From: an uncultured Bacteriovorax sp.
GTDB lineage: Bacteria; Bdellovibrionota; Bacteriovoracia; Bacteriovoracales; Bacteriovoracaceae
Assembly: GCA_946481315.1 (NCBI GenBank)
Contig: CAMLMH010000001.1
Location: forward strand, 868,001-932,000
DNA length: 64,000 nt
Direction: 5' to 3'
Part shown: positions 11,474 to 37,623 of the stretch, piece by piece
How the letters are laid out: the number at the start of each line of letters is the position of its first letter
Numbering within the stretch: the stretch's first letter is position 1
The notes under the pieces: generated by a model
Seen by the model: the letters and a program-made list of their open reading frames with translations, nothing else
The model's database searches: none
What the model was told of the DNA's origin: nothing
Program-made: the position numbers and the translations under genes

Positions 11474-12421
11474 ATGAAGACACCTTCTGCCAAAAAACCG
11501 GCTAAACAGTCTAAGTTCCTCTTTATAACTCTTGGCGTTGTAGCTCTTGGTGGTGGTTTTTATTATTACCAGGAAAACTTTGCACCTAAAAATGCAGAAG
11601 TTGTCACGTTACCTAGTACTCCGGAGTCTCCAAAGAAGAAGAAGGTCTTACCACCGCTTAAATACGTTTTACGTGAAATTCAGGGAAGTATTCAAAACGA
11701 TGAAATGCGCACCATGATGGTCGAGCAGGTTTTTGAAAGAAAAGGGCTAACCGTTAGTGTTGAGTTTTTAAAAAATGAAGAAGCCCTGGATCTAAAAAAA
11801 GATTTTAATTTTTACTTGGATAATACATTTATGGCCATGTGGATGAAACAGGCCAGAGCGGATGATCTTGAGCCTGTAGTATCTAGCAGTCAGGGATGTT
11901 CCATGGACACTCATATTCTTGCTAAAAAAGATTCCCCCCTTTTTCTGGATAATATAAAAGAAGCAAAGAAAGTTCTTATTTTTAAAAACGGCACTCATTC
12001 ACCGGGCACATTGAATCAGGTTCTTTCTCTGGGGCTAGACCCGTCAATAGTTTTTGAAGTTTCTAATCCTGAGGATGCGGTATCGGCCCTGGAACAGGGG
12101 ATGGTTGATATTCTCATTGAAGACACTCTCAGTCGGGAGAAAGTCGGGAAAATAGGGCAGGCTTCGGGCAAAGAATTTTTTGAAAAATTTAAACAGATTC
12201 ATACAACTAATGCTGAATTGCCATGCAGAGTAGTTTTGATGGCCAGGAGCACTTCACCGGAGATGAAAGATAAATTTATTGAAGTGATTTCCGGTATGAA
12301 AAAGATGTTTAAAGGCGGAACTACTGTACTAAGTGATGCCCAATTGACGGAAATGATGAAACCATACGATTTTGCAAAATTGCAGGAGCTGCAAAATCAA
12401 ATCAAACCTTTTACGCCATAA
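11474..12421 (+). CDS. membrane-anchored solute-binding-like protein, paralogue 2
   Basis: A 315-residue protein, the most divergent of the three paralogues. It has an N-terminal anchor (about residues 14-32), a Pro/Lys-rich linker, and a periplasmic solute-binding-like domain. The Cys pair is kept (C142 and C251, the second again in LPCR), but the KSG and TERAMR segments are changed. The ATG at 11474 is chosen because a TTGAGG ribosome-binding site ends 7 bases before it; the longer TTG-started frame at 11462 begins inside that site. Its last 11 bases overlap the convergent phhB gene. Function is unknown; ligand sensing or delivery is a guess. Confidence 0.75.
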   Translation: MKTPSAKKPAKQSKFLFITLGVVALGGGFYYYQENFAPKNAEVVTLPSTPESPKKKKVLPPLKYVLREIQGSIQNDEMRTMMVEQVFERKGLTVSVEFLKNEEALDLKKDFNFYLDNTFMAMWMKQARADDLEPVVSSSQGCSMDTHILAKKDSPLFLDNIKEAKKVLIFKNGTHSPGTLNQVLSLGLDPSIVFEVSNPEDAVSALEQGMVDILIEDTLSREKVGKIGQASGKEFFEKFKQIHTTNAELPCRVVLMARSTSPEMKDKFIEVISGMKKMFKGGTTVLSDAQLTEMMKPYDFAKLQELQNQIKPFTP

Positions 12422-12665
12422 GATCATTAATCTTAGCGGCAAGAATGAAATCTTTTTCCGAGAGACTTTTCTGATCATGGGTTGTTAATTTAACCACACA
12501 CTGATTAAAACTTACGATTAAATCCGGATGATGATTTAAGCGATTGGCTTCCCAGGCAATTGCATTGACGAAACCAATCGTTTTCAAATAACTCTTAAAA
12601 GTAAAAATACGGATGAGCTCGTTGTTCTTGATTTCCCATCCGGCCGGCGTTGTTAAATTATTCAT
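12411..12665 (-). CDS. phhB: pterin-4a-carbinolamine dehydratase (PCD)
   Basis: An 84-residue PCD, which dehydrates 4a-hydroxytetrahydropterin so the cofactor can be recycled after aromatic amino acid hydroxylation. The catalytic histidines are present: H45 and H46 in NHHPD, and H63 in TTHD. The family C-terminus (SEKDFILAAKIND) is intact. The ATG at 12665 overlaps the stop of the upstream solute-binding-like gene (ATGAATAA), implying translational coupling and membership in the 12411-17599 operon. Its usual partner phhA lies at 37620-38417, in another operon. The recycling role with PhhA is inferred from the pair. Confidence 0.93.
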   Translation of the reverse strand: MNNLTTPAGWEIKNNELIRIFTFKSYLKTIGFVNAIAWEANRLNHHPDLIVSFNQCVVKLTTHDQKSLSEKDFILAAKINDLMA

Positions 12666-13657: not shown

Positions 13658-14341
13658 TTACCTGCTTGAATTGTTAATAATAGTTCTGTTGATCATAGGA
13701 TGGACTTCATCAGTAGGCCCCCAATCCGTATCAGGATGAAAGGCTATTACATTAAGCACAGAATCGAAAGTTTCAAAGTGATGACCCAGCATGGCAGGAA
13801 GGAAGAATACATCTCCTGGCAAAAGTTCAGTCACTCCGTCATTCGTTATGCAGCGACCCCTGCCGGAATAGACCACTCCAAAGCGAAAACTTGGATGATG
13901 GTGATGAGTTTGTGCTATTGCAGGAGGAAAGTGTAGCAAGTTCAGACAAGGCTCACCAATTCGCGCTGGTGACAAAAGTAAGGTATCCGTACAACCATCA
14001 ATGTATTTTAACCGCCCTTGCTCTTCAACGGGTCCGCCTAACGTGTTCAGCACATTAAGATTTGACGTCGTAATGAGTAGTAAACGGCTATTGCTGCTGA
14101 GCTTTATTTCCCAGCTGCCGTTTAAACATCCATACATCCCGGTTGAAATTTTATGCTCCGAATGTCTTCCGGAAAAAGTAGCTGTTCCCTGATGAAGAAA
14201 AAAATAAATCGCTGGGCCATTTTTGCTTATAATTTCTGCTTCGCCAGCTGATTGGATATTCTCCAGTTCAAATAACAGTTTTAGAAAAGAAGCCTGTTTT
14301 TTAAAATTACCCTGTATAACTGTTGCGCGGGTTAAGTCCAT
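13658..14341 (-). CDS. bicupin protein
   Basis: A 227-residue protein with two cupin-like halves. The second is better preserved: an HHHH cluster at residues 146-149, then GRGRC, LLPGDVFFLPAMLGHHFE with H187-H188, and a C-terminal HPDTDWGPTDE / HPMINRT block. The histidines would bind a metal such as Fe, Mn or Ni. No signal peptide is present, so it acts in the cytoplasm. Its start overlaps the end of the radical SAM gene by 10 bases. Dioxygenase, isomerase or sugar/ligand-binding functions are all possible, and the sequence does not choose. Confidence 0.75.
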   Translation of the reverse strand: MDLTRATVIQGNFKKQASFLKLLFELENIQSAGEAEIISKNGPAIYFFLHQGTATFSGRHSEHKISTGMYGCLNGSWEIKLSSNSRLLLITTSNLNVLNTLGGPVEEQGRLKYIDGCTDTLLLSPARIGEPCLNLLHFPPAIAQTHHHHPSFRFGVVYSGRGRCITNDGVTELLPGDVFFLPAMLGHHFETFDSVLNVIAFHPDTDWGPTDEVHPMINRTIINNSSR

Positions 14342-15879
14342 ACTTTGTCCTTGCTGATTTGTCGTTTAAAAGGCTTCTTTATCAGAGTTTTTATTATTGC
14401 GAGACCTTCATAGTAAAGCATCCACCATCCGCGAATTCGGAATTCATTATAATGATCCCGTTTAATCATTTTAGTGACATTGACCAGGATGAAAGGGCTG
14501 ATGAAGGCCGGAAAATACTTTATTACATCCAGACGAAGACAGGCCTTAATAAAAAAATGTGGCATGAGCGGCAGTAGGACGATGAAGGCATGATAACGAC
14601 GGGATAATGAATCCTGTTCCAGCTCCGTTCCCCCGGCGATATGTCCGCGGGTAAGCTGATTGGTTTCAAGTTTGTGAATCTGTTCCGGTGTAAGCAGCTT
14701 TCTTTCCTTAGCAATAGAGAGAATTTCTGTAGAGGGATAATAGCGCAGCCAGAAAGCATAAATATGCCATGGTCGTGCAGAAGCCAGTAATTCAACAGTT
14801 TTGTCCAGATCCTCTTTCGTTTCAGTGGGAAGGCCGATGATCACATCAACAGTCGTGCGGATTTTGTATTTACGTAAGGCCTGCATGGCCTTGAGAATCT
14901 GATCGTCTTTCGTTTTGCGATTGAGAATCTCCTTGCGGATATTTTCTGCTCCTGACTGAATTCCCATTTCAACAGCATCACATCCACTCTCAGCGAGTAG
15001 TTTAGCCATTTCTTCATCAATGGTATTAGGATATACCCAGGCAAAGTATGGGAGTCCTACTTTTTCTTTATAGAGCGGACAAAATTCGCGCAGCCAGTTT
15101 CTATCATAACTGAAATCTTCGTCATTGAAGCGGACGTGCTTAATACCATACCTCTCTCTGGCCCAGAGAATTTCATTCACAACATATTCCGGAGAGTGCC
15201 GACGGGCCCATTTTTTTGTTTCCGGAATTTCGGTTTTATACAGCTTCATGGAGGTATTATTATCGCAAAAAGTGCAGCGGTATGGACAACCTCGTCCGCT
15301 CATCGTCGTATATCCATGATTGAGATAAGGCATGACATCGTAGTAGAGATCCTTGTCGGGAAAAGGCAGGCAATCGAGGTCTTCAATCAGCGGCCGCATG
15401 GAATTAAGAATAATTTTTCCGTCCCGTTTGAATCCCAGTCCGGCAACAGAGTCAAAGCTGATTTTTCCGGCCATGGCCTCTACCAATTCGTAGAGTGTCA
15501 TTTCCCCTTCACCGCGTACTATATAATCAAAGCAATCATGGCGCAGACATTCTTCGGGATGAAAAGTCGCATGCGTGTTGCCTACAACAATCGGAATGTT
15601 GAGCTTCTCTTTTATCCTCCTGGCCCATTTTAAGGCCCAGGCGAAATCATCGGTAACTGCTGAGAGACCGATGAGATCCGGGGCGTGCGACTCAATCTGA
15701 TTAATGATGTGCTGCTGGTCCTCAAACAAGCGGGAAAGCAGGGGATATTGAACCCAGGGATTATCAAAAAGATTGGGATCATTGACCAATGCAGTTTCAT
15801 GTCCCTTGCTTTTTAAAAAAGCTGAAAGACACTGAATACCGCCCATTTCCTGTTGAGGGTTGAGGAAAAGTACTTTCAT
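14332..15879 (-). CDS. cobalamin-binding-domain radical SAM protein
   Basis: A 515-residue B12-dependent radical SAM enzyme. The N-terminal domain (about 1-130) has the Rossmann-like B12-binding layout (VLFLNP, GLSAVTDDF, PIVVGNTHATFHPEE). The radical SAM core follows, with the 4Fe-4S cluster ligands C198, C202 and C205 in GRGCPYRCTFC, the EMGIQSG strand and IGLPTET. The family includes methylases acting on unactivated carbons and ring-forming enzymes such as those in bacteriochlorophyll, hopanoid and antibiotic pathways. The substrate is unknown. It overlaps the TVP38 gene (4 bases) upstream and the bicupin gene (10 bases) downstream, so it is tightly co-expressed with them. Confidence 0.9.
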   Translation of the reverse strand: MKVLFLNPQQEMGGIQCLSAFLKSKGHETALVNDPNLFDNPWVQYPLLSRLFEDQQHIINQIESHAPDLIGLSAVTDDFAWALKWARRIKEKLNIPIVVGNTHATFHPEECLRHDCFDYIVRGEGEMTLYELVEAMAGKISFDSVAGLGFKRDGKIILNSMRPLIEDLDCLPFPDKDLYYDVMPYLNHGYTTMSGRGCPYRCTFCDNNTSMKLYKTEIPETKKWARRHSPEYVVNEILWARERYGIKHVRFNDEDFSYDRNWLREFCPLYKEKVGLPYFAWVYPNTIDEEMAKLLAESGCDAVEMGIQSGAENIRKEILNRKTKDDQILKAMQALRKYKIRTTVDVIIGLPTETKEDLDKTVELLASARPWHIYAFWLRYYPSTEILSIAKERKLLTPEQIHKLETNQLTRGHIAGGTELEQDSLSRRYHAFIVLLPLMPHFFIKACLRLDVIKYFPAFISPFILVNVTKMIKRDHYNEFRIRGWWMLYYEGLAIIKTLIKKPFKRQISKDKVWT

Positions 15880-16556
15880 GTTTTATCCGCCAGGGTGTTT
15901 TTGATACTATAAAAAAGAATCAGCAGAAAAAAGAATAAACCTGCCATGACAAATTTATTGCTCAGCCATCCGGCACTATGACCGCTCAGCATGGCCCCAA
16001 AAGCATTGAGCAGAAAAACATCAAAGAAAACTCCGATGATCGTAGTGATCAGATAGAGGCGAAAATCTATCCGCAAAAGCCCGCAAAGAAGATTCATAAC
16101 TCCAAACGGAACGACCGGTGAAAGGCGTAACAGCAACAAAGAAGAGCTGTCTGCATTGTTGATTCTTCCGGATATTTTCTCCAGCCGGGGACGAAATTTA
16201 TTAAACAAAGCTGAGAGCATGAGCTTTTTTCCCAGAAAATATCCCAAACAAGCACTAATTACCGTTATGCTGTAAACGATGATCGAGCCGGGAATGAAAC
16301 CGAAGAAAGCTCCTGCAGATATATTTAAAAGAGTACAGCTACCGGGAATGGAAAAGGTCGAGGCAATCAGGTGCAGTCCCATAAAGATCACGATAGCGTA
16401 GAGGGGAGAGTGCAGATAAAATTGCTGAAAAATTTTAAGGATTCCTGAAAATTCATCTGGCTTAATGACCGGTCCGTCTTCCAGCAGAATTGTTCCTGCC
16501 AGCAAGGCTATCACGACTGGACCCAGAAATTTTTTTATTTCAAATTCTCTGTTCAT
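15876..16556 (-). CDS. TVP38/TMEM64 (DedA-like) membrane protein
   Basis: A 226-residue polytopic inner-membrane protein with about six hydrophobic segments. The central region carries the family pattern: SIPGSCTLLNISAGAFFGF, then GYFLGKK, and further on LLRLSPVVPFGVMNLL. TVP38/DedA relatives act in lipid (for example undecaprenyl phosphate or phospholipid) flipping or membrane homeostasis. It lies between the JmjC and radical SAM genes with 4-base overlaps on both sides, so it may help move a lipid intermediate of this pathway; that is inference. Confidence 0.88.
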   Translation of the reverse strand: MNREFEIKKFLGPVVIALLAGTILLEDGPVIKPDEFSGILKIFQQFYLHSPLYAIVIFMGLHLIASTFSIPGSCTLLNISAGAFFGFIPGSIIVYSITVISACLGYFLGKKLMLSALFNKFRPRLEKISGRINNADSSSLLLLRLSPVVPFGVMNLLCGLLRIDFRLYLITTIIGVFFDVFLLNAFGAMLSGHSAGWLSNKFVMAGLFFFLLILFYSIKNTLADKT

Positions 16557-17599
16557 TTGATCCTTTCTTCCATCGCCTTCATGACCTGGGAGATTTTTCC
16601 TCCGGCATGGGCCCAGATGAGATTCGTATCAATCTTCCCATAGCTCATGGTTTTCCAGATTGGTGGATTGGTTGAAAAAATTCTCAGCATGGTCAGCGTG
16701 ACTGAGGACTTAAGGGCAGCCCTGAGTGAAGAGTAACGGTAACCGACAGCAATTGTATCCGTTAAATTTTCCACAAAGTGCCAGGTATGAGGAGGGACAT
16801 AGAGAACATCACCTGGTTTGAGTACTACTTCGAAACTTCGGGCGTGTTTAAATAACGGGAACCGGATATGATCCGCCTCATCGACATCGACAGGGCTTTT
16901 GATGTAAGCCGTATTCCCTACTTGCGGATAAAGCAGAGCGGAGTCATCTGGAGAGAAAAGTGTCCACTTTTTTTCCCCGACGATCTGAACATAAAGATTG
17001 CAAGGTTGGTCTGTATGCAACAGCGTCTTTTGACCAATACCTCCGACAAACATATAGGAAGCATGGGCGAAAGTCCGGTCTCCCTGCATGTTCTGTAGCC
17101 AGGAGAGATTGAGTTCATTTTTTAGCTCTGGGTTTTTGTCCATCAGCGGACTGAAACGCAAATATTTTTTTCCGCCTTTTCTAATATCAGCTATAAGTTC
17201 TGCCAGAGTGAGAATTTCAAAATCGGTTTCTGTATTCCGGTCAGTGAGACCATCGGCGGTGACAATAAGAACATCTTCGCTTCCCGAGCGAAGGGCCAGG
17301 TTATCAAAAGACCATTTTTTTATTGCCGGCCATTCCAGGGCTGCTCCGGAAAAAACGACAGGTGTTGAAGTCTGAAAATAGGATTTTTTGAATTCAGCTG
17401 ACGTTAACCCACTGATTCGGGGAACTTCCGCTTTCTGGACTTGTGCTTGAGAATTTAGCCTTTCAGCTATTTTCTGCAATAACTTTGCCTTGGAAGTACC
17501 AAACAGCAGATGAAAGTACCTTCCTAGCAGTTGCTCGGCGATGAGATAGAAAGAAAATTCGAGTCTTTCTTTGCTTAATGTGACTGAGGTGCTTTTCAT
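16553..17599 (-). CDS. JmjC/cupin_8-type Fe(II)/2-oxoglutarate oxygenase
   Basis: A 348-residue protein with a JmjC-like cupin_8 domain. The facial iron triad is visible: H195 and D197 in LLHTDQP, and H274 in YVPPHTWHFVEN. LYVQIVGEKKWTLFSP and KPGDVLYVPP are typical. Such enzymes hydroxylate proteins, tRNA or small molecules using 2-oxoglutarate and oxygen. The first 60 residues are a helical N-terminal extension. This is the first gene of an operon continuing through TVP38, radical SAM, bicupin, solute-binding-like and phhB (17599 down to 12411). Its upstream gap is shared with a divergent glycosyltransferase gene. Confidence 0.87.
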   Translation of the reverse strand: MKSTSVTLSKERLEFSFYLIAEQLLGRYFHLLFGTSKAKLLQKIAERLNSQAQVQKAEVPRISGLTSAEFKKSYFQTSTPVVFSGAALEWPAIKKWSFDNLALRSGSEDVLIVTADGLTDRNTETDFEILTLAELIADIRKGGKKYLRFSPLMDKNPELKNELNLSWLQNMQGDRTFAHASYMFVGGIGQKTLLHTDQPCNLYVQIVGEKKWTLFSPDDSALLYPQVGNTAYIKSPVDVDEADHIRFPLFKHARSFEVVLKPGDVLYVPPHTWHFVENLTDTIAVGYRYSSLRAALKSSVTLTMLRIFSTNPPIWKTMSYGKIDTNLIWAHAGGKISQVMKAMEERIK

Positions 17600-17681: not shown

Positions 17682-18689
17682 ATGGTTCGCTCTAAGATTG
17701 TTATTTCTTGTGCCGGATTAGGGATGGGAAATGCCTCCCGCATTGCGGCCTTGATTGAAGAGCTGCACGGATTCGATGTTGATGTTTATTCATGGGGTGC
17801 CGGATTCCGTTTTCTAAGAGAATTCCGCAATATCCACCAACTGAATTTTCGTTTATTTGAGCTTGAATCATTCAGTGGAAAGAGCCTAACTAAAGGTTTT
17901 ATCACTTATCTGAAAAATTGCTGGTACTTAAGACAGCGTCTCTCAGCAGAGAAAATAGATTTAATCATCGCTGATTCTGATTATCATTTGCCTGGTTATA
18001 TCGCACTCTCGGCGCCAAGATGGTTTATCGGCCAGGCAGCCGATGTTATTGCCCGGAAAAAAAAGTTTCGTCCCCGCCTTTCTTTGAGAGGAAAAATAAA
18101 TTTCTTTCTTCGGGAAAAGCTCGACTTTTTTTTCCAGTATTTTTGTTATGACAGAATTTTTGTTCCCAGCTTTTCAGCCAATCATAAGCAAACAGGTTTG
18201 CGGGTGCAGTTTATTGATTTGATTGTCCGGAAGGAATTTCTTAATTCCCCGAATGGAAGTCCATCAGAAAAAATCGGAATTCTGCTCAGTGGCTCAAAGC
18301 AAGGACTGCAGGATTTTGAATGCCTGAAGGAGAACTCAGTTGTCGAGTTTATTGCCCGGGGAGATGAGAAGACAGAAATTTCCAGTGTCGCGGAGATGGA
18401 TAAATTTCACTCCTTCATCTGCCAGGGAGGTCTGTCGTCACTTTCTGAATTACTGACGAGGAAAAAACCTCTTTTTGTTGTACCTTTGCCGCATCATCCG
18501 GAACAGCTGCTTAATGCCATGGAGATTGAAAGATTAGGAGCAGGAATAAAAGTGGAGCCGCAATTTTTTAAAGATAACGATCAGCTATCCATAAACTTTG
18601 AACTGAATTCTCTTCATCCTTCGCCCGGGTTTACGGGGGCCAGTCAACTGGTTCAGGAAATTTGTAATACGTTAGTGTTTGATAAATGA
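17682..18689 (+). CDS. GT-B glycosyltransferase (MurG/GT28-like)
   Basis: A 335-residue GT-B type protein. The N-terminus (VISCAGLGMGNASR) is the glycine-rich loop typical of MurG-like and processive-type glycosyltransferases. The C-terminal half has FHSFICQGGLSSLSELL, a donor-binding segment, followed by KPLFVVPLPHHPEQLLNA, the usual GT28 C-terminal block. No signal peptide; it likely works at the membrane face on a lipid acceptor. It is preceded by a divergent operon and overlaps the convergent methyltransferase gene by 18 bases. Donor and acceptor are unknown. Confidence 0.82.
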   Translation: MVRSKIVISCAGLGMGNASRIAALIEELHGFDVDVYSWGAGFRFLREFRNIHQLNFRLFELESFSGKSLTKGFITYLKNCWYLRQRLSAEKIDLIIADSDYHLPGYIALSAPRWFIGQAADVIARKKKFRPRLSLRGKINFFLREKLDFFFQYFCYDRIFVPSFSANHKQTGLRVQFIDLIVRKEFLNSPNGSPSEKIGILLSGSKQGLQDFECLKENSVVEFIARGDEKTEISSVAEMDKFHSFICQGGLSSLSELLTRKKPLFVVPLPHHPEQLLNAMEIERLGAGIKVEPQFFKDNDQLSINFELNSLHPSPGFTGASQLVQEICNTLVFDK

Positions 18690-19256
18690 ATAGCAGCTGG
18701 CGATAGCTGTAGATCTTTTCTCCTGCAGCTTTAATCCATTCTTACCGGCCAATTTCACATATTCGTCGCCTGAGCGTATATGAGCGGGACATTTTTTTAG
18801 CTCATGCACCCAGCGGTAAATAACTCCTGTTATTCCATCCCGGGGAAACAAAAGGACCATATTTCCGCCTGATTTAAGCTGGGCTGATGCCAGTTGGAAA
18901 AAATTCTCCGGATTGGAAATAAATTCCACAATTCCCAAAGCGATCAGGTGATTAAATTTTCCGGATCCGCAAAAGCTCTCCAGCGTCCCGTGATGTGTTT
19001 TCACTTCAGGAAAACGGGCCTGCAGCTCTTTGATCATGGCATGGGAGGGATCTAAGGCCGTAATCTGCATATTATAATTTTTCAGAAAATGGCCGGTGTA
19101 TACACCAGGTCCGCATCCCACATCGATAAGAAAATTTCCAGGAACAGGTTTCAACAGCTGAGTGACAACATTTATTTCCTGTTTTTTAATTTTTCCCCAC
19201 AATCCTTGCAGACTTCTTTGATAATAGTCAGCAGCCCGCTCTTCAAAATAGTTCAT
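18672..19256 (-). CDS. class I SAM-dependent methyltransferase A
   Basis: A 194-residue small-molecule type methyltransferase. Motif I is LIDVGCGPGVYTG (residues 43-55), followed by the acidic ITALDPS loop and LIALGIVEFI. The start overlaps the previous methyltransferase stop (ATGA-type, 4 bases), so the two are coupled. The substrate is unknown; the neighbourhood points to a secondary metabolite or a glycolipid. Confidence 0.85.
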   Translation of the reverse strand: MNYFEERAADYYQRSLQGLWGKIKKQEINVVTQLLKPVPGNFLIDVGCGPGVYTGHFLKNYNMQITALDPSHAMIKELQARFPEVKTHHGTLESFCGSGKFNHLIALGIVEFISNPENFFQLASAQLKSGGNMVLLFPRDGITGVIYRWVHELKKCPAHIRSGDEYVKLAGKNGLKLQEKRSTAIASCYSFIKH

Positions 19257-19909
19257 TGGCGTACCGCTTTAACCAGGAGTCCCGGATCTAGGGGAATAGG
19301 TGAGTGAATGTAGTAGGGAGTGTATCCTCTGATGTTTAGCCATTCCTCAATTTCTTCTTTCTTATATGAACGTGCGCGGTAGCCATGCAATCCGGGCTTC
19401 TTATCTTTCCACTTTCGGTAATAATAATAAGGATTCCATAGGGATGTTTGTTTTTTAGTTGTAAAGGAAAACAAGAGCGTGCTGCAATTCATCCGCGAAA
19501 ATAAACTCTGCATTTCTTCGGGAGTCAGCCAGTCGGTGAGCCCCAGAAACACAACAACATCGGCTTGATAATCTGGCAGATGTAAAACATTGCTTGAAGT
19601 AAAGAGGACATTATCTGATCCACGAAACTGCTCTAGGGCCTTATCGATGGCTTCACTAGAGAGATCTACACCATGATAATAAGAAAACTTTGCCTTCAAT
19701 TGACTCAACAGAACCCCACTGCCACATCCCAATTCCAGCAGACGGGATGCTGGGTTTTTCCGAAGGTGCTCATTGAGAATTTTAGCAGCAGTTGCTGTGC
19801 GGTTTCTCACCGTCCAGGATAGCGGATTAAGGGGAGACCAGAATCCATAGCGGGAATTTTCCCACTTTAAAATTTTTTGATCCCAATAATCTTTACTGAA
19901 TCCGGACAT
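19253..19909 (-). CDS. class I SAM-dependent methyltransferase B
   Basis: A 218-residue methyltransferase with motif I LLELGCGSGVLL (57-68), then YYHGVDLS and VVVFLGLTDWLT. It is not closely similar to its neighbour outside the SAM-binding core, so the two are probably not a recent duplication. It overlaps the ChbG-like gene by 17 bases and the next methyltransferase by 4, making a three-gene operon. The substrate is unknown. Confidence 0.85.
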   Translation of the reverse strand: MSGFSKDYWDQKILKWENSRYGFWSPLNPLSWTVRNRTATAAKILNEHLRKNPASRLLELGCGSGVLLSQLKAKFSYYHGVDLSSEAIDKALEQFRGSDNVLFTSSNVLHLPDYQADVVVFLGLTDWLTPEEMQSLFSRMNCSTLLFSFTTKKQTSLWNPYYYYRKWKDKKPGLHGYRARSYKKEEIEEWLNIRGYTPYYIHSPIPLDPGLLVKAVRQ

Positions 19910-20573
19910 CGCTGAGTCCTCTTAAAAAAGTAAATTCTGAAATTCTTTCCGATCGTAGTTTATCATAAATTTTATACTGCTCGAAATCATCCTTTACAGA
20001 AGGATGACAGATAATCTGATGGAAAGCAGCTAGCTTCTTTTCTAAAGTTTTTTTCTGCCGAATATCCTTTTTTCTCAAATAACCGTAGGGAAGAATTGCG
20101 GCTGTCAGTCCTGCTTTTTTCAAAATGGTCTGTGCTCTTATCCCCAGAACAAAACTCCCTAAATGCGATCGGTCCAGCATGATACGAATTTTCAGCTCCG
20201 GATTTGCCCGTAATTCTCCGGCAATAACATTCAGGATTCCCGGTAACAAGTGAACATGCTGATGTCCGTCCAGAACTGTCACGGGAATATTCTTCTGATG
20301 ACAAATTTTCATCTGGCGGCGGAATTCATCGTGTAGTTTTTTGGGCTTAAACAGCAAACTCAAACGATTAGAAGGGTAGGTCAGATTAAAATGCAGATTA
20401 AAGACTACCGGAAGAGTGAGAAGTTCTTTTAGTCGATAGTCCAGAAACTCCCCATCTGTCATCACAGATACGGAACCCAATATGCCGCATTTCACCAGCT
20501 CAATGATACTGTCATTTATTGCCGGAGATAGACCCCAGTCATCGGCGCAGAATTTTCGGTAAAATAATGACAT
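19893..20573 (-). CDS. ChbG/HpnK (YdjC-like) carbohydrate deacetylase
   Basis: A 226-residue metal-dependent deacetylase of the ChbG/HpnK family, which removes N-acetyl groups from chitooligosaccharides or hopanoid-linked sugars. The DD pair comes early (CADDWGLSPAIND, residues 11-12) and the metal histidines follow in NLHFN and DGHQHVH. The ATG at 20573 puts the DD motif at the normal distance from the N-terminus; a longer TTG-started frame (to 20663) would overlap the divergent glycosyltransferase start and is less likely. With the two methyltransferases it may tailor a sugar group. Confidence 0.85.
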   Translation of the reverse strand: MSLFYRKFCADDWGLSPAINDSIIELVKCGILGSVSVMTDGEFLDYRLKELLTLPVVFNLHFNLTYPSNRLSLLFKPKKLHDEFRRQMKICHQKNIPVTVLDGHQHVHLLPGILNVIAGELRANPELKIRIMLDRSHLGSFVLGIRAQTILKKAGLTAAILPYGYLRKKDIRQKKTLEKKLAAFHQIICHPSVKDDFEQYKIYDKLRSERISEFTFLRGLSDVRIQ

Positions 20574-20652
20574 CAAAAAAGCATAAAAAATCCGGTAGAT
20601 TTTGACGAGAGTTTTATCTTGAATAAGTCTTTCATCTAATAAATAATTCTTT

Positions 20653-28067: not shown

Positions 28068-28333
28068 TTAGTAAGGCTCAAAAGATAGCTCTCAACATCA
28101 GCAACTGTAACTTCCTTGAATCTTCTGCCAGAAGTTTTTGTAAGCACAATACTCATCTGGGTTATGTCCAGCGGGATTTTTACTGCTTTTTCCAGTTCAA
28201 AGACAAAGTCAACAAAGTCGATGGACTCGAGCCCCAGATCCTCCATAATTTTTGTCTGGCGATCAATAACTATCTGCTGATTGCTGATTCTTTTTAATGA
28301 ACTGACAATACAATTAAAGATTTCATCCTGCAT
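28064..28333 (-). CDS. acyl carrier protein
   Basis: An 89-residue acyl carrier protein with the phosphopantetheine site at S37 in LGLESIDFVDF, followed by the usual acidic helix. The sequence ESID, rather than DSLD, is typical of ACPs in specialised pathways. It lies between the Cys-less ketosynthase-like gene (14-base gap) and the true ketosynthase (4-base overlap), so it is the probable carrier for their shared acyl chain. Confidence 0.9.
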   Translation of the reverse strand: MQDEIFNCIVSSLKRISNQQIVIDRQTKIMEDLGLESIDFVDFVFELEKAVKIPLDITQMSIVLTKTSGRRFKEVTVADVESYLLSLTK

Positions 28334-29107: not shown

Positions 29108-29857
29108 TTGACGAATAGTAAGACAAAACAATTGGCAATTATCACTGGTGGTACGAAAGGTCTGGGACTGGCAATTGCGGAAATGCTAGCTCCTCACTAC
29201 AATCTTGCACTCATTTATTTATCTGATAATAAAGCTGCTGAAGCTGCAGGAAAAAAAATTGCCGACGCTTTTTTGCAACAATGTGACATTACTCATGCAA
29301 GCGAAGTTGAAAATGCAGTTAAAAGAATTAAAGAACATTTTCAAACTCATTGCTCTGTTTTAATTAACTGTGCCGGAATAGCGGTAAAAGATTTATTTTT
29401 AATGGAAAACCCCGCTGATCACCGCAAAACGTTTGAGACCAATTACTTTGGTGCTGTTAACGTGATTCGTTCTGTCTTGCCGGACATGGCCCGTAACAAA
29501 TATGGAAGAATTGTCAGTCTTAGTACCAATAATGTGAGTATTAATAATCGTGGCTCAGGTGCCTATTGTGCTTCAAAGGCAGCGCTGGAAAAATTTTGTG
29601 AAATCCTGGGAGGGGAGGTCGCGAGATCCGGCATCACTGTAAACCTGGTGCGCCCCGGAATGGTAGAGACACAAATGTCAGCTTCCTATCTGAGTGGCCT
29701 GAACGAAGAAGAGTTTAAATCACTGACTAGTCCTAATGAAAAATTAATCTCTGCTGTTGAAGTTGCCCGGGCAGTTAAGTTTCTGGTCGAATCTGAACAT
29801 ATCAATTCCAGTATTATTACAGTGGACAGCGGGCATGCACTTTTTAGAAAAGTTTAG
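29108..29857 (+). CDS. 3-oxoacyl-ACP reductase-like short-chain dehydrogenase (FabG-like)
   Basis: A 249-residue classical SDR. The cofactor motif TGGTKGLG is at residues 13-20, NCAG at about 87-90, a catalytic Ser around 139, and Y153-x3-K157 in GAYCASK. It would reduce the 3-ketoacyl product of the neighbouring ketosynthase, using NAD(P)H. The start is TTG with a GGAAAG ribosome-binding site 7 bases away. It is divergent from the KS-ACP operon with a 49-base gap, and the next membrane-protein gene overlaps it by 23 bases. Substrate assignment is by context. Confidence 0.88.
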   Translation: MTNSKTKQLAIITGGTKGLGLAIAEMLAPHYNLALIYLSDNKAAEAAGKKIADAFLQQCDITHASEVENAVKRIKEHFQTHCSVLINCAGIAVKDLFLMENPADHRKTFETNYFGAVNVIRSVLPDMARNKYGRIVSLSTNNVSINNRGSGAYCASKAALEKFCEILGGEVARSGITVNLVRPGMVETQMSASYLSGLNEEEFKSLTSPNEKLISAVEVARAVKFLVESEHINSSIITVDSGHALFRKV

Positions 29858-31274
29858 TCCACTTTATGCATGGATTGGGGCAGTAATTCTCTTTGGAGTC
29901 ATAACCCTTTTTCCTGGTTCACCCTTCTCAGCTTATCTTATTTTACCGGTTATTCTTTGCGCCTTTTTTCCGGCTCATCGCCAGAAAATTGTTTTTGCAG
30001 CAACCCTTTTTTTGGGAATTTTTATTCTCAATAATTTCTTTGCTCTTCATATTTATGGACGGGATATTCTGGATCCTTTCATTTTACTTTTTCAGGAAAA
30101 AGGAGAGGCCCTCAGCTATTCGGTTTTTATGGCCTCACTTCTGGCCGTTGCAGGCTACTTATTGCTGAATATGGTGATGTTTTTCTTTGCCCGCAGGTTC
30201 TTTTCAAAATTTAGTTTTCCTCTTTCGTTGACACTGGTTTTCATCTATATGTTCCTTTTCTGGCTTAGTTGTCAGTGGCTATCATTGGATTCTTTTCCCA
30301 GTATTGTCTTTGCTATGATCATGCTTATGTTAGGACGACACTGTTTTTACTTTTTTAATTATCTGCGGTTTTTCCGAACACTACCCCAAAACTGCACACA
30401 ATGCTTTGCTCTGTTTCAGCCATTCTGGTTTCTTAATTTTGAAATACCTGAAAATCCCGACTATGAAGTGGAAAAACAATCCATTGCATATTCAGCACAG
30501 GCCACTGCCGCCCTTCATATTCTCATCTCCACAATGGGATTTAAAATTTTATTAATTGTTTTTACTATGCTGGCAGGATTTATTCTTAAAGGTGAGCTAA
30601 GCATTTACCTCAGTGCCGAAGCTCTGGAGAAAGAATTGTTTTTTCCCTTGTTTGAAAACTGGAGGAATACACCCGTTGCGGTTCTTTATTTTGCACTTTT
30701 TAGTTATGCATTTTCGTACTTAATGACAACATTTTTCATCTATGGAAGAGTCATGATTGCGCTGGCCAAACTCTGTGGCTTCAATCTTCCGGATTATATT
30801 GATTCTCCCTGGAAGTCGCATTCATTTGCCGATTTTTTCTCCCGCACAATGTATTATTATAATTTAATTATCGTAAATCACTTCTTTTTCCCGGCCGTTG
30901 AATGGAGCAGGCGTTTTAACTTAAAAAAAGAATGGCGGGTATTCATCTGTTTAAACTGGGCACTCATTTTTGGGGGATTTTTTGCCAGGTTTTTAAAAGA
31001 TCTTTTTCGCATTTATCGACGGGGCTTTTTCCCAACCATAGACTATCTGACAAAATCTACTTTGTTTTATCTTATTGTTTTATCTCTGGCGGTTAATTTC
31101 AGTATCATCCGCAATCGGCACAAAAAAGTGCAGGAAGGCAATATTTTTAAAATGTTGTTATTTGTCTTTTTTTACTCTTTAATTATGCCTTTTAATCTTT
31201 CTCGTTATTTTGGCGAAAGAACTGATATCATCTATTTTTATATGAAGTTATTAAGTTTTGGTTTGTTGTTTTAA
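29835..31274 (+). CDS. polytopic membrane protein, MBOAT-like
   Basis: A 479-residue membrane protein with about ten hydrophobic segments. A central block (GFNLPDYIDSPW / SFADFFSRTMYYY / VNHFFFP) resembles the MBOAT pattern of alginate O-acetyltransferase AlgI and relatives, in which an aromatic-rich stretch leads to a catalytic His. If correct, it would transfer an acyl group from CoA or ACP to a sugar or lipid hydroxyl across the membrane. The ATG at 29835 lies inside the end of the ketoreductase gene, a sign of coupling. Its end overlaps the convergent acyl ligase gene by 24 bases. The family match is by eye. Confidence 0.6.
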   Translation: MHFLEKFSPLYAWIGAVILFGVITLFPGSPFSAYLILPVILCAFFPAHRQKIVFAATLFLGIFILNNFFALHIYGRDILDPFILLFQEKGEALSYSVFMASLLAVAGYLLLNMVMFFFARRFFSKFSFPLSLTLVFIYMFLFWLSCQWLSLDSFPSIVFAMIMLMLGRHCFYFFNYLRFFRTLPQNCTQCFALFQPFWFLNFEIPENPDYEVEKQSIAYSAQATAALHILISTMGFKILLIVFTMLAGFILKGELSIYLSAEALEKELFFPLFENWRNTPVAVLYFALFSYAFSYLMTTFFIYGRVMIALAKLCGFNLPDYIDSPWKSHSFADFFSRTMYYYNLIIVNHFFFPAVEWSRRFNLKKEWRVFICLNWALIFGGFFARFLKDLFRIYRRGFFPTIDYLTKSTLFYLIVLSLAVNFSIIRNRHKKVQEGNIFKMLLFVFFYSLIMPFNLSRYFGERTDIIYFYMKLLSFGLLF

Positions 31275-32768
31275 AATCAACTGGCCCAAAAATCTTTGGG
31301 TTCTTTCTTCCTTAAAAAATCTTTTAAAATACCATCTCCTGGCCTTGCCGCTGGCGGTACGGATTTTTTCTTCTGTAATAAAAAGAACTTTAGGACGCCG
31401 GTTCGGACTTAGGAATTGAAAAGACTGCGAAAAAAGATCCTGAATAAAAAATGGATCGATATCTGCATCAGTTCGTTCCAGAACCACTGCCATTTCTTCT
31501 CCCCGATAATCATTATCAAAGGAGCAGATAATAAATTCCCGATTGTCTGGTAACTTATCCCGTATGAGGTCTTCAATCATTCGAAGTGAAACACTTTCAC
31601 CATTGATCTTTGCCATTTCTTTTTTACGTCCGGTAATAAAAAAATAATTTTCATTATCGACCTTCTGATAGTATCCCAGGTCCCCGGTTGGGAAAAAATC
31701 ATCAGACAACACTATTTCCGTTTGCAGATACCCCTGTTGAAAGTTCGTGCCTTTTATGAAGAGTTCTCCCTCTTTTCCTTCCGGACATAATTCTTGATCA
31801 CACATGATTTTTACGGTTGTTCCAGAGAGGGGGGGACCAATGGAGGGGTAAGGAGAATTGATGAGCAGTCGCTCATAGAGCTCGTCAGAAATATTGACCG
31901 GAATTTTACAGGAAAAATTAATTCCCTCGGAGAGTCCATATCCCTGAATAATTTTTTTACCAGTCAGCAACCAGATCTGTTTTACTGTATTTGACGAAAG
32001 CGGAGCCGCAGCTGATACAAAATAATTTAATGAACTCAGATCATAGTTTTGCGCAATTTCTCCGGAGCGGGCAATAGAGTTAAGTATTGTGGGTATGACA
32101 CTCAGGATTTCTACATTGTATCTGGCCAGTGAATGCAAAATCAATTTCAGATCGAATTGCGAAAAAAGGACAATCGTTCCGCCGGTTAGCAGTGAAGCAA
32201 AAAAACTGAAATACAAAGCGTTAACATGAAAAAGCGGAAGGGGGGTACCGATAATTCTTTTACGGTCATTTAAATGATGATGTTTGATAACGGCCTGAAC
32301 ATTTTCTAAAACGCACCGGGCGCTTTGCCGTACAATTTTGGATGTACCAGTGGTTGCGCTGGTAGGGATATAGGTGAAGTCCTGATTTTCCGGAAATGGC
32401 GAAGGAGGATAATTATCACTATATGCTCCATCCTCAAAAAAGGATAAATCAATATGCGCATGATCTGGGATCAGGCTTAATAGATGGCATTTAATTCGTT
32501 CATCTTCATTGGGATTTTGTAAATACACTGTTTTATGGGCAAACCACGAAGCCGTAATAAGTACGGCAAAGCGATAACTGTTTTCTTCACCAATGACTAT
32601 ACATTGCTTAGAAGGAAATTCTCTAGTTATCTTTGCGGAGTTTTTCTGAACATCATTTAAAAATTTTTTGAATGTGTATTTGGTATCATGAACCGGATCG
32701 ATAAAGAAAACTTCGTCACTGTGAAGTAAGCAAGATTCATAAACGAGCTTGAGTATTTCATTATTCAT
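31251..32768 (-). CDS. AMP-dependent acyl-CoA/ACP ligase
   Basis: A 505-residue acyl-adenylating enzyme of the ANL superfamily. The ATP-binding P-loop TSATTGTSK (136-144), GYGLSEG, TGDLG and the hinge region ITGRKKEMAKINGES are present, and a catalytic Lys follows in TASGKARR near the C-terminus. It activates a carboxylic acid as an acyl-AMP and transfers it to CoA or an ACP. Close to an ACP, ketosynthase and ketoreductase, it most likely supplies the starter acyl group. It is alone on the minus strand, converging with the MBOAT-like gene. Confidence 0.9.
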   Translation of the reverse strand: MNNEILKLVYESCLLHSDEVFFIDPVHDTKYTFKKFLNDVQKNSAKITREFPSKQCIVIGEENSYRFAVLITASWFAHKTVYLQNPNEDERIKCHLLSLIPDHAHIDLSFFEDGAYSDNYPPSPFPENQDFTYIPTSATTGTSKIVRQSARCVLENVQAVIKHHHLNDRKRIIGTPLPLFHVNALYFSFFASLLTGGTIVLFSQFDLKLILHSLARYNVEILSVIPTILNSIARSGEIAQNYDLSSLNYFVSAAAPLSSNTVKQIWLLTGKKIIQGYGLSEGINFSCKIPVNISDELYERLLINSPYPSIGPPLSGTTVKIMCDQELCPEGKEGELFIKGTNFQQGYLQTEIVLSDDFFPTGDLGYYQKVDNENYFFITGRKKEMAKINGESVSLRMIEDLIRDKLPDNREFIICSFDNDYRGEEMAVVLERTDADIDPFFIQDLFSQSFQFLSPNRRPKVLFITEEKIRTASGKARRWYFKRFFKEERTQRFLGQLILKQQTKT

Positions 32769-32809
32769 GTTAAAATAAACTTATTTAAATCCTATTACCG
32801 GACTCACTA

Positions 32810-34225
32810 ATGTTCATCCTCATCTTTTTTCTTTCTATGTTTAATTTTAGCCTTCTTCAAAATGGTATGGCAAAAGACATTGTTATGTCAGCGGATGAAG
32901 TGTCCAACACAATTTCTATTCTGGATGCTGAAACATCAGAAATACTCGGTCAGTATTCATATGGTCGACCACGTGATTATGTTCTTTTAAGCTCTGTAAA
33001 AAAATTTACTCAGACAAACGTTCATGGTCTGGCCGTCAATCCGGTTGGGAAAGAACTCGCAATAACTTCCAATATCAGTAATTCTGTCGTTATTTATAAA
33101 TTAACTGATCTGGAAAAAGAAGTCCATTATCTCAATGTTGGTCTTTCACCTCACATTGCCATGTATTCAGCCGACAATAGTGAATTGTGGGTGGCCAGCC
33201 GGGGAACAGAGTCTGTAGAAATTTTTGACACAAAAAAATATAATCTTAAAACGAAATTAAAGGTAAGTCCTTGTCCTAGTTTTTTTGCATTTTTAAAGGC
33301 TAAAGCACACGTTTTTGTCTCTAATGTATGTACAAATAAACTTGAAGTTTATCATGCAAAGAATAAAAAACGGATAAAGACAATAGAACTCAATGGATAT
33401 TTTTCTCCGCTCATAACGCTTTCACCAGATCAAAAAGAATTATGGATCATCCGCAAAGAAACAGATCAGGTAGCCAGGATTGATACAGAGAAGCTGGAAT
33501 TGATTGAATACGTTGATGTCGGAGTTTTCCCGCAACACGTGGCTTTTATCCAAAAAGGCGGGCGAGTACTGGCAGCTGTTACAGTCGGTGGGGAAAGTGC
33601 CGTCAAGTTTTATAGCTTTGCTACCGGAAAAACAGGAACTAAACTTGAGCACAATGTTATTGTTCCTGGTGTCCCACATGGCATTACAGTCAGAAAAGAT
33701 CAAAAGAAGATCTTTGTGGCCGGTGAACACAGTGATAAGGTCTACACCATTGACGCTGACACTATGGCCATAACAGAGCGGACCAATATTGGCAATTCAC
33801 CACAATCACTCATTACGATTGCTGATTTTCCAGTGCCCAAAAATGGGCTTTCTCAACCGTCAGTGAAAAGAGACTCTATCATTCATAATCTGTCCGGGCA
33901 GTCTTTAGTGTCAGGTGCAGAAGTGACAGTGAGACAGCTTTTTCAGAACTTCCATTTTAATTTTTTAGTTCATGGGCAAATTAAAAAAGAACTGGCATTG
34001 CAGTTTTATATGACTGATTCAGAAGAGGCCATAAAAACGAAAGATAAAGAGAAGCTGATTCCCATTGGTTTTGTTTTCTGTTCATTGGGAACATATGCTT
34101 GTGTTAATTCCACCTCCATTCCAGTGGGGCTCATCAAGCAGGATGTACTAAAAAATCCAAATCTTAAAATGGTTGCCTTTGATGAAGAAGGAAAGATGAT
34201 ACTGATTTCTACGGAGAAAAAATGA
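32810..34225 (+). CDS. YVTN-type beta-propeller protein
   Basis: A 471-residue exported protein (signal about 1-20) made of repeated 40-residue units with the YVTN-family pattern: VSNTISILDAET, NSVVIYKL, SVEIFDTKKY, NKLEVYHAKN, QVARIDTEKLE and DKVYTIDADTM. These form a seven-bladed-type propeller. The last 130 residues form a separate domain with two cysteines. Such proteins often bind metals or act beside redox enzymes in the periplasm. It overlaps the DUF305 gene by 4 bases. The function is unknown. Confidence 0.82.
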   Translation: MFILIFFLSMFNFSLLQNGMAKDIVMSADEVSNTISILDAETSEILGQYSYGRPRDYVLLSSVKKFTQTNVHGLAVNPVGKELAITSNISNSVVIYKLTDLEKEVHYLNVGLSPHIAMYSADNSELWVASRGTESVEIFDTKKYNLKTKLKVSPCPSFFAFLKAKAHVFVSNVCTNKLEVYHAKNKKRIKTIELNGYFSPLITLSPDQKELWIIRKETDQVARIDTEKLELIEYVDVGVFPQHVAFIQKGGRVLAAVTVGGESAVKFYSFATGKTGTKLEHNVIVPGVPHGITVRKDQKKIFVAGEHSDKVYTIDADTMAITERTNIGNSPQSLITIADFPVPKNGLSQPSVKRDSIIHNLSGQSLVSGAEVTVRQLFQNFHFNFLVHGQIKKELALQFYMTDSEEAIKTKDKEKLIPIGFVFCSLGTYACVNSTSIPVGLIKQDVLKNPNLKMVAFDEEGKMILISTEKK

Positions 34226-34590
34226 AGCAAATAATGTTTCTCATTTTATGTTTGTTGTGGGGTTTTGAAGCTAAATCCTGCGACACTTGCCTGGGATCAA
34301 AAGAAAGTGAGGTGTTTCTGGCTTCCCCGCTAACGCCTTTTAAGACATTGATGGAAAAATCGATGCATTTGATGGACACTCAGATGGGAAAAGTGAATTT
34401 GGAAGATAAAAATAAGGAGCGTGTTTTTTTACAAATGATGATTGCGCATCATGAAGGAGCGCTGAATATGGCCAATTCGCTGATTGCTCACAGTAAAGAT
34501 CCCGATCTTGTGAATTATGGCAGATCTATTATTGCCAATCAAATGAATGAAATTCTTTATATGAAAGCACTATTGAATAAAATTAAATAA
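34222..34590 (+). CDS. DUF305-family exported protein
   Basis: A 122-residue exported protein with a signal peptide (about 1-18) and the DUF305 core: MMIAHHEGALNMA followed by GRSIIANQMNEI. Family members such as CopM bind copper or silver in the periplasm through Met and His. Two cysteines (CDTC) lie near the start of the mature protein. It is coupled to the YVTN gene by a 4-base overlap. In this neighbourhood it might hold copper for the copper monooxygenase at 22973-24889; that is inference. Confidence 0.85.
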   Translation: MKQIMFLILCLLWGFEAKSCDTCLGSKESEVFLASPLTPFKTLMEKSMHLMDTQMGKVNLEDKNKERVFLQMMIAHHEGALNMANSLIAHSKDPDLVNYGRSIIANQMNEILYMKALLNKIK

Positions 34591-34595
34591 AGCAT

Positions 34596-35519: not shown

Positions 35520-35550
35520 ATGATCAGTGCTTTCATATTATTTTAATATT

Positions 35551-37623
35551 ATGGAAGACAAAAAAAGAAATGTAACCATTGTTTTAGTTATTGCTGCTTT
35601 TTTGGCCATGCTGGTGGCCTTGTTTACGACTAAAAACACTCAAAAAAGTACACAAAAAAGACTGAAACTCTACTGGTTCATCCCGGATGGACTTCGCTCA
35701 GAACCTGTCACTTTTAAAATTTTTGAATGGGCAAGAACCGGCAAACTTCCTAATCTGAAGCAGTTAATGGATGAAGGAGCTCACGGTTACTCGATCCCTG
35801 TTTTTCCCGGACACACTCCCACCAATTTTGCGACATTGTTAACCGGTACAACTCCTGACGTTCACGGTATAGCTGACGGACCGATGCGCATTGAAGGTTA
35901 CCCTCTGAAGATGGTTTCCAAAGGAGGATTCAGTTCACAGGCAAAACGAGTGGCACCGCTTTGGTATACGCTGGAACAAGAAAAAATGCTGGTGAGCCTT
36001 TTATCAATTCCGGGATCGACTCCGCCGGAATTAAACGATGGAGTCACAATACGCGGACGCTGGGGAGGCTGGGGAATTGATTTTCCGGCCATTAATTTTC
36101 ACGCCGAAGGTGACAGACAGCTACAGGTTGAGGCCGGACAAAATAAACGTGTTTTTAATTTTGGTTCTGAGCTGACAAAGTTTATCAAAACCAGAAATCC
36201 TGAAGGCTGGACAATTCCGGTACAAAGTTATTCACCGGCGCGGGAAATTGATCTCACAAACTGGAGTTATCCTTTCTATGGTCTTATCATCGATTCTTCA
36301 GATGATCAGACCGAAAATTATGATCAGGTCATTTTTTCATCTGATAAAAAAACAATTGTCCGTAAAATTAAGGAAGGCGAGTGGAGTGACTGGGTGGGGG
36401 TGAAACTCAACTGGGAACTGAAAAATGATTACAATATTCATACGCCTAAGAAGTCCGCCTGGGAGAGGGAAGCCTCTGCAGTTGAAGTCGGAACCGATAT
36501 GAAAATCAAGGTCATCAAACTGGGTAAAAAAGATTATTTCCGTATCCGTTTTTTTTACAACAATCTCAACGAGTTTCTGGTTAAACCCAGTTATGTCTTT
36601 GATGACATTCACAAAAATGTCGGCCCGGCCGTAGACTTTGTCGACAACTATCCGCCACAGCTCATTTATTTGCGGGAAGATAAAACGACGTTTCTCGAAG
36701 AGATGCAGATGTCTTTTGAATGGCACCAGAAGATGGCCGGCTATATGATTAAGCAGCTCAAAAGTGACGTCATTATTCAGAGTATTTATTCTCCCAATCA
36801 GATGCTGACCAGCCGCTGGTGGCTGCCTTATGTTGATCCTAAAAGTCCGCGTTATCATGAAATAAGCGACACGGAGAGAGAAATCTTGTGGCAAGAAGTC
36901 CTATCCATGTACCAGCATATCGATAATATACTCGGAGAAATCCTACGATCAGCACCCTCAGACGCCTACATTGTCTTTTCGTCTGATCACGGGGCCATTC
37001 CACTATCTAAAGAAGTCCGGCTCAATAATCTGTTTGCCAAAAAAGGCTGGCTGAAATTTAAATTCTCCAAAGCTACCGGAGAATATGAAATAGACTGGGA
37101 AAAGACCAGGGCCATTTTCCTGCAGATGGATAACGTTTATCTGCATACCAAAGGTTTGGGCGGCAATTACAACCGTGATTCCGGACCTCACTATGAAGCT
37201 TTTAGAAACGAAGTAATAGAGGCAATCTCATCTCTGACAGACAGTAATGGAATCAGACCACTCGCCAGTATTGTTAAATGGGAAGAATTAGAGAAACTGC
37301 AGTTACCGGCGGACCGATCCGGTGACCTGGTCATTGCCAATACTCCACACTATAACTGGGTGGAAGACGTTTCTCTGGACTATCAGATTTTCAAAACATC
37401 GCTGAAAGGCGGTTATAAGCAGGCCGTGCTGCCGGATCAGGAAAATGGTATGTGGACTCCGTTTGTGATTAAAGGGCCAGGAGTTAAGGCCGGAGCTGAA
37501 TTGAAAAATCCGGTTAACCATATTGATCAGTATGCAACGATCCTTCGGTTGCTGAATATCAAACCGACCGGACATCAAAAAGGACGGGTTCTGAAAGAAA
37601 TTCTCCGGCACTCTATAAATTAA
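35551..37623 (+). CDS. type I phosphodiesterase / nucleotide pyrophosphatase-family protein
   Basis: A 690-residue protein with an N-terminal membrane anchor (about 8-30) and a large alkaline-phosphatase-superfamily domain. PDGLR at the start of the domain, PGHTPTNFATLLTG with the likely nucleophile Thr, GIADG, and SSDHGA near the middle give the metal-binding framework. It would hydrolyse a phosphodiester or phosphate in the periplasm. The ATG at 35551 is used because a longer GTG-started frame has no clear ribosome-binding site. Its end overlaps phhA tail to tail by 4 bases. Confidence 0.85.
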   Translation: MEDKKRNVTIVLVIAAFLAMLVALFTTKNTQKSTQKRLKLYWFIPDGLRSEPVTFKIFEWARTGKLPNLKQLMDEGAHGYSIPVFPGHTPTNFATLLTGTTPDVHGIADGPMRIEGYPLKMVSKGGFSSQAKRVAPLWYTLEQEKMLVSLLSIPGSTPPELNDGVTIRGRWGGWGIDFPAINFHAEGDRQLQVEAGQNKRVFNFGSELTKFIKTRNPEGWTIPVQSYSPAREIDLTNWSYPFYGLIIDSSDDQTENYDQVIFSSDKKTIVRKIKEGEWSDWVGVKLNWELKNDYNIHTPKKSAWEREASAVEVGTDMKIKVIKLGKKDYFRIRFFYNNLNEFLVKPSYVFDDIHKNVGPAVDFVDNYPPQLIYLREDKTTFLEEMQMSFEWHQKMAGYMIKQLKSDVIIQSIYSPNQMLTSRWWLPYVDPKSPRYHEISDTEREILWQEVLSMYQHIDNILGEILRSAPSDAYIVFSSDHGAIPLSKEVRLNNLFAKKGWLKFKFSKATGEYEIDWEKTRAIFLQMDNVYLHTKGLGGNYNRDSGPHYEAFRNEVIEAISSLTDSNGIRPLASIVKWEELEKLQLPADRSGDLVIANTPHYNWVEDVSLDYQIFKTSLKGGYKQAVLPDQENGMWTPFVIKGPGVKAGAELKNPVNHIDQYATILRLLNIKPTGHQKGRVLKEILRHSIN

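Follow-up and report, generated by a model that had tools for sequence, protein, structure and literature searches.

A conserved gene block in an uncultured Bacteriovorax sp. that places a compact type II ketosynthase cassette beside an MBOAT-fold protein and putative sugar-modifying enzymes

A 64,000-nt stretch of DNA (hereafter the window) from an uncultured Bacteriovorax sp. (assembly GCA_946481315.1, contig CAMLMH010000001.1, positions 868,001-932,000), which belongs to a bacterial group known for predators, carries a 20-gene locus in which a small ketosynthase (KS) cassette lies beside a protein with the fold of the membrane-bound O-acyltransferases (MBOATs). Parts of it resemble described systems. 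In the Dlt system, DltA is the ligase, DltC the carrier and DltB the MBOAT, which receives its substrate from a carrier protein. In aryl polyene (APE) clusters, the KS ApeO is found beside ApeC, a KS-like protein of about half the size in which the first thiolase domain is retained (available portion of PMC8358021), and the Ape gene list includes a dehydratase (ApeI/P), a second acyl carrier protein (ACP), a second KS, a thioesterase, an RND exporter and Lol-like genes (excerpt of PMC8253772). The glycosyltransferase HpnI, the YdjC-type deacetylase HpnK and the radical SAM enzyme HpnJ act in turn on a lipid-bound sugar to give the hopanoid cyclitol ether (excerpt of PMC12583986). Polyketide and other clusters of Bdellovibrionota have been collected with antiSMASH (available portion of PMC8067016), and the locus may be listed without a name among them. 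No title on the locus was found among the literature matches listed (including the best 10 of 55, 10 of 128, 5 of 37 and 8 of 113), and a search combining half-size chain length factor and MBOAT-fold terms gave no paper.

Our preferred reading, held with slightly less than even confidence, is that positions 13658-34590 form one biosynthetic locus for a cell-envelope acyl-sugar conjugate, which would be made inside the cell and decorated outside. The 20 genes, on mixed strands, form a block conserved in two relatives. By scanning genome contigs with an alignment of the KS-like protein, we found the carriers L001 and L002 in genomes G001 and G002, both on contigs of metagenome-assembled genomes (MAGs), of which 72 kb (the entire contig) and 100 of 155 kb, respectively, were read. 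In G002, a segment of about 38 kb holds 18 of the 20 genes, with order and strands unchanged relative to the window when one copy each is taken for the PMT-like and oxidase genes; extra copies of the PMT-like (two) and oxidase (four) genes are interspersed. G001 has 17 of them in about 33 kb, some blocks having moved. The genes for a 191-aa lipoprotein-like protein and a phosphatase-type enzyme are absent from the G002 block, and those for the oxidase, a beta-propeller and a DUF305 protein from the G001 block; all evidence comes from three loci, and because those of G001 and G002 belong to MAGs, an absence in a carrier may be an assembly gap. The other window open reading frames (ORFs) that were compared have no orthologue in the G001 and G002 stretches, the matches there being weak and confined to ABC ATPases and binding proteins. 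For the binding protein at 12658, G001 has a 27% relative, which is slightly closer to another window binding protein. The surroundings of the block differ as well. In the window it lies between a pterin dehydratase and a phenylalanine hydroxylase, an interval that also includes a binding protein, SBF and a phosphodiesterase; in G001 and G002, a common M16 peptidase is nearby, together with methylmalonyl-CoA mutase genes recognised by inspection of the sequences and not by a family assignment. One block in two different surroundings behaves as a unit. The initial annotation had proposed from gene position that these operons belong together; the synteny in relatives favours this, the operons being kept together in two diverged genomes with other surroundings, and a guess from position thereby becomes a conserved locus with defined ends. 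The ends are narrower than the 12411..37623 first proposed, as four outer genes named by Pfam/NCBIfam (the pterin dehydratase, periplasmic binding protein, SBF and phosphodiesterase) are outside the conserved block. The genes that had been named, including oxygenases, radical SAM enzyme, methyltransferases, KS, ACP, KS-like protein, ketoreductase (KR) and ligase, are present as ORFs intact at their annotated coordinates, with Pfam/NCBIfam or fold support, and ORF coordinates bear out the 4-base overlaps, of which there are seven, between same-strand neighbours.

The core of the block is a predicted compact type II polyketide/fatty-acid cassette comprising a ligase, an ACP, a KS, a half-size KS-like partner and a KR. 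The KS (26928..28067, minus strand) matches its family and is present in both relatives; C142, H276 and H311 are intact and, with K306, invariant in the window and both relatives (3/3). The ACP (28064..28333, minus) also matches its family and has S37 within the stretch LGLESIDFVDF, which is present in both relatives. The KR, a Pfam-supported SDR protein (29108..29857, plus; 53% identity in both relatives), keeps Y153 and K157 in all three genomes. From knowledge of the families, we take these conserved residues to be catalytic. The acyl/aryl-AMP ligase (31251..32768, minus) is assigned by Pfam and occurs in both relatives. One gene away from the KS is a half-size, Cys-less KS-like protein of 236 aa (28348..29058, minus), which resembles a chain length factor (CLF) and is called half-CLF below; it occurs in both relatives, whose start positions agree with the corrected start at 29058. 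Its ketoacyl-synt match is weak (E 0.023), and its model (pLDDT 69) matched KS and KS/CLF folds in Foldseek at TM-scores of about 0.5, with the KS/CLF of ishigamide, a polyene, among the first rows. The site of the active Cys lacks this residue in the window protein and six aligned relatives. Against PDB sequences, the half-CLF profile matched nothing at 0.001 and gave only weak KS and polyketide synthase (PKS) rows at E≤10; ApeC was absent from the displayed rows of both the PDB-sequence and Foldseek matches, so that the comparison with ApeC is based on protein size, the lack of Cys and the neighbouring genes. The cassette proteins are about 39-54% identical to those of the relatives, with gene order still kept. 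As noted in the initial annotation, no dehydratase, enoyl reductase or thioesterase is seen: these families gave no Pfam/NCBIfam match among the 20 block genes. Both carriers have three FabA/FabZ-family genes each on other contigs, and dehydration could therefore be borrowed. When viral contigs were scanned with the KS alignment, two distant KS matches appeared, L005 (31%) and L006 (28%), which were not used.

Next to the KR is the MBOAT-fold membrane protein (29835..31274, plus), present in both relatives, whose starts agree with its corrected start at 29835. It has no Pfam/NCBIfam match, and its model matches MBOAT structures, with DltB as the best match at about 11% identity. The assignment rests on fold, as an HHalign comparison of its family with an ordinary MBOAT of the G001 locus aligned only 41 columns at a probability of 2.2%. 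By sequence motif, Arg385 likely occupies the position of the catalytic His of MBOATs. Residue 385 is Arg in 16 of 19 family rows and His in three, two of the rows being the same G001 protein; in more distant relatives, His stands in the column aligned to 385 or next to it in six of seven.

Class-wide searches covered seven genes (MBOAT-like, PMT-like, radical SAM, JmjC, beta-propeller, oxidase and GT28-type). The MBOAT-like protein was found in 2 of 129 genomes, and the PMT-like protein was full-length in the same two, with two more weak partial matches, both in G001; the chance that a second two-genome gene matches the same pair among 129 genomes is about 1 in 8256. The radical SAM enzyme occurs in 4/129 genomes at E≤1e-60 (75-76% identity in G001 and G002, 31-38% in the other two), the JmjC protein in 24/129 at E≤1e-20 (56-58% in the carriers, at most 35% elsewhere) and the beta-propeller in a single genome of 129. 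Matches to the oxidase at E≤1e-20 were found in four of 125 genomes, full-length copies of 45-50% identity only in G002 and weaker matches in G007, G011 and G017, with none in G001; the GT28-type enzyme gave matches at E≤1e-10 in six of 116 (42-43% in both carriers, 27-32% in the other four). As a set, the tested genes are absent from the other class genomes searched, which also favours the grouping first proposed. In a collection of 5.8 billion proteins, and with the window protein counted in, the half-CLF family has seven members and the MBOAT-like family at least 18 (about 8,000 candidates scored), while the radical SAM family has at least 115 at E≤1e-100 (again with about 8,000 candidates scored), some of them from Elusimicrobiota. 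By the listed longest contig of each protein, half-CLF and MBOAT-like members are paired on four contigs, of 1,814,484 (P0003, P0013), 154,947 (P0004, P0008; this is G002), 125,414 (P0005, P0022) and 72,311 bases (P0006, P0023; this is G001), and an 810,031-base contig pairs an MBOAT-like with a radical SAM member.

Across wider Bdellovibrionota, the pairing of the KS cassette with the MBOAT-like protein is suggestive only, because the phylum-wide profiles return many unpaired members. The MBOAT-like profile gave matches in 16 of 368 phylum genomes, and in 14 of these the match was weak. Six loci from six of these 14 genomes, in which neighbours were called with small purpose-built hidden Markov models at E≤0.01 (some matches being weak), have a KS neighbour in five cases, a half-CLF-like one in four, and ACP-like, KR-like and ligase-like neighbours in three each. 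With widened profiles, which are less clean, 11 genomes have an MBOAT-like match at E≤1e-18 and six of them a half-CLF match on the same contig, all six having supplied sequence to the profiles; G007, G210 and G247, three MBOAT-like genomes outside the profile input, gave no half-CLF match. Nine of the 15 half-CLF matches at E≤1e-20 lack such an MBOAT-like partner on their contig, and the widened MBOAT-like profile matches 131/368 genomes, mostly through short one-motif matches resembling ordinary MBOATs. In two genomes, DctP-type binding proteins adjoin the distant KS, half-CLF and MBOAT-like genes (L033 9186-10211; L034 5454-7672). The distant KS/half-CLF locus L036 4552-8592 also carries a KASIII-type gene, a nitroreductase and a gene with a PAPS-reductase domain.

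The remaining genes of the block are mostly candidates for work on a sugar or outside the membrane. A cupin protein (13658..14341, minus; Cupin_2; 50-52% copies in both relatives) is followed by the B12-binding radical SAM enzyme (14332..15879, minus; Pfam; 75-76%), a VTT (DedA-like) membrane protein (15876..16556, minus; VTT_dom; 40-53%) and the JmjC/Cupin_8 hydroxylase (16553..17599, minus; Pfam; 55-58%). Then come the GT28-type glycosyltransferase (17682..18689, plus; Pfam, MJ1255/VC2487 family below cut-off; 41%), methyltransferases 1 (18672..19256, minus; Pfam; 33-34%) and 2 (19253..19909, minus; Pfam; 41-43%) and the YdjC-type deacetylase (19893..20663, minus; Pfam; 33-37%), all found in both relatives. 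Invariant in the window and both relatives are CxxxCxxC at 198 of the radical SAM enzyme, HTD at 195 and H274 of the JmjC protein, and D41, D42, H134, H136 and H138 of the deacetylase. The 755-aa PMT/GT-C-like membrane glycosyltransferase (20653..22920, plus) scores 24.1 bits to PMT_2, below the cut-off of 26.1. The oxidase (22973..24889, plus) is an exported fusion of thioredoxin-like, CxxCH haem and Cu2_monoox_C parts (Pfam, 23.3 bits at a cut-off of 23), and CLNCH at 226, HH at 373 and HLH at 534 are kept as motifs in all five copies (window and four from G002). The 191-aa lipoprotein-like protein (24886..25461, plus) has a lipobox-like start in its sequence and two relatives in G001, and the alkaline-phosphatase-superfamily enzyme (25458..26978, plus; Pfam Sulfatase) a 46-47% copy in G001. 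The label of sulfatase first given to the latter is doubtful: the window protein lacks the C/S-x-P-S-R motif of formylglycine-type sulfatases, with Thr79 aligning near that place. The exported YVTN-type beta-propeller (32810..34225, plus; Pfam) is found only in G002, as is the DUF305 protein (34222..34590, plus; Pfam) among the stretches read. Further exported redox-type proteins, cytochrome P460 and DUF3179 proteins, lie inside the G002 block (L019 17355-18311; L020 7639-8718).

Around the block, the pterin carbinolamine dehydratase (12411-12698) and phenylalanine hydroxylase (37620-38417), which act together, flank the locus, an arrangement that looks like an insertion between the two. As regards island markers, the window contains neither a tRNA nor an Rfam match at gathering score. 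The G+C content is 0.383-0.396 over 24001-36000 (KS cassette and neighbours) versus about 0.41-0.44 in other blocks. Several related NMT1/phosphonate-type periplasmic binding proteins lie near the locus (7690-8601, 12658-13653 and possibly 11462-12421), and a 27-28% relative adjoins the radical SAM gene in G001. Two endonuclease I-family genes stand side by side at 4290-5974. The relatives' contigs (L014 3119-14530; L018 11995-15585) contain several genes without a counterpart in the window: radical SAM genes, genes for GT4 glycosyltransferases, an ABC-2 exporter pair and a small protein that on visual inspection resembles PqqD; G002 also has an Asp/Arg hydroxylase-like gene that the window lacks.

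From the genes, conservation, linkage, conserved catalytic residues and folds observed, we infer every substrate, the step order and the product. The ligase would load a starter acid onto the ACP, the KS and half-size factor would extend the chain, and the KR would reduce it, any dehydration being borrowed from housekeeping FabZ-type enzymes. The MBOAT-fold protein may then pass the chain to a sugar acceptor in the membrane, in the way that DltB takes its substrate from a carrier. The GT28-type glycosyltransferase would build this acceptor and YdjC would N-deacetylate it; the B12 radical SAM enzyme, the JmjC hydroxylase and both methyltransferases would alter it, and the VTT protein may aid its passage across the membrane. 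Outside, the PMT-like protein would add a sugar, the alkaline-phosphatase-superfamily enzyme would add or move a phospho-group, and the haem/copper enzyme would oxidise the product; the beta-propeller and DUF305 proteins are putative helpers. The modified acyl or glycolipid product of the initial annotation fits the enzymes, its chemistry being drawn from family resemblance only. A more specific proposal, possible but rather doubtful, is a new class of envelope glycolipid in some Bacteriovoracales, in which a dedicated minimal type II PKS (KS, half-CLF, ACP, KR, ligase) supplies the acyl part, an MBOAT relative without its former catalytic His binds the chain or transfers it, the sugar is rebuilt by the B12 radical SAM enzyme, and the exported thioredoxin-haem-copper enzyme oxidises the product outside. 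A half-size CLF beside an MBOAT-fold protein offers a small testable system for transfer of a type II acyl chain to a membrane acceptor.

Several observations weigh against the acyl-sugar reading. The MBOAT-like protein may not be an active acyltransferase, given Arg in the expected catalytic-His place; the genes missing in G001 or G002 may be non-essential to the core, unless the MAGs are incomplete; and the exporter pair of the relatives' contigs is absent from the window. In addition, radical SAM family members are spread far more widely than the KS cassette, and this spread beyond the half-CLF and MBOAT-like families suggests that the sugar-side module and the cassette were brought together. 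The same spread and the varying module contents of the three genomes speak for another reading, in which the operons are independent neighbours linked by slow gene-order drift among close relatives. We consider that quite improbable, as the cassette proteins keep their order at about 39-54% identity, the window surroundings are unlike those in the relatives, and the two rarest genes are absent from the other 127 class genomes. Even less credible is that the radical SAM enzyme, JmjC protein and cupin modify a peptide or protein, as for ribosomally synthesized and post-translationally modified peptides (RiPPs), with the acyl genes as a separate pathway. The best NCBIfam row of the radical SAM enzyme is the RiPP enzyme ApyD, and the relatives' contigs hold further radical SAM genes; however, ApyD scores 147 bits against a cut-off of 750, every NCBIfam equivalog is missed by a wide margin, the adjoining deacetylase and glycosyltransferase point to sugars, and no precursor gene was noticed in the block, though no search aimed at one was made.

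An unlikely alternative, yet the one we would consider most readily, is that the genes act on a long polysaccharide of the cell surface, such as O-antigen or capsule, on which the acyl chain would be a minor substituent and not the lipid part of a glycolipid. The GT-C-like enzyme and deacetylase within the block would suit it, as would the GT4 and ABC-2 exporter genes of the relatives, but these last lie outside the window, whose block lacks a polymerase, a chain-length regulator and an exporter. We give rather less credence to a reduced pigment cluster of aryl-polyene type, in which the ligase would activate an aromatic acid, KS, half-CLF, KR and a borrowed dehydratase would build a polyene, and the rest would anchor it to the envelope. 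Such a pigment is favoured by the pairing of the KS with a Cys-less partner of half its size, as for ApeO and ApeC, by the accompanying ligase and KR, and by the ishigamide row in Foldseek; the single ACP and KS, the lack of dehydratase, thioesterase, MMPL/RND exporter and Lol-like genes, and sugar-side and oxidase genes with no Ape counterpart speak against it.

Compared with the described systems, the locus has, as in type II PKS (KS-CLF-ACP), a discrete KS with Cys-His-His and a discrete ACP with its Ser site. Like APE clusters, it has a half-size KS-like partner near the KS, together with ligase, ACP and KR (available portion of PMC8358021). Unlike them, it adds an MBOAT-fold protein and sugar-side enzymes and is without the dehydratase, second ACP, second KS, thioesterase, RND exporter and Lol-like genes of the Ape gene list as excerpted from PMC8253772; with the rest of that list lacking, the locus is APE-like in one protein pair and is not an APE cluster. 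Glycosyltransferase, YdjC-type deacetylase and radical SAM enzyme are shared with HpnI-K-J (excerpt of PMC12583986). However, the scores are far under the equivalog cut-offs (HpnJ, 127.3 bits versus 577.6; HpnK, 29.4 versus 232.6) and the glycosyltransferase is of another type. In contrast to the Dlt system, KS and KR would first extend the chain, Arg stands at the likely catalytic-His place, and identity to DltB is about 11%; as in that system, a ligase and a carrier protein occur with an MBOAT-fold protein, for which DltB is the best match in structure.

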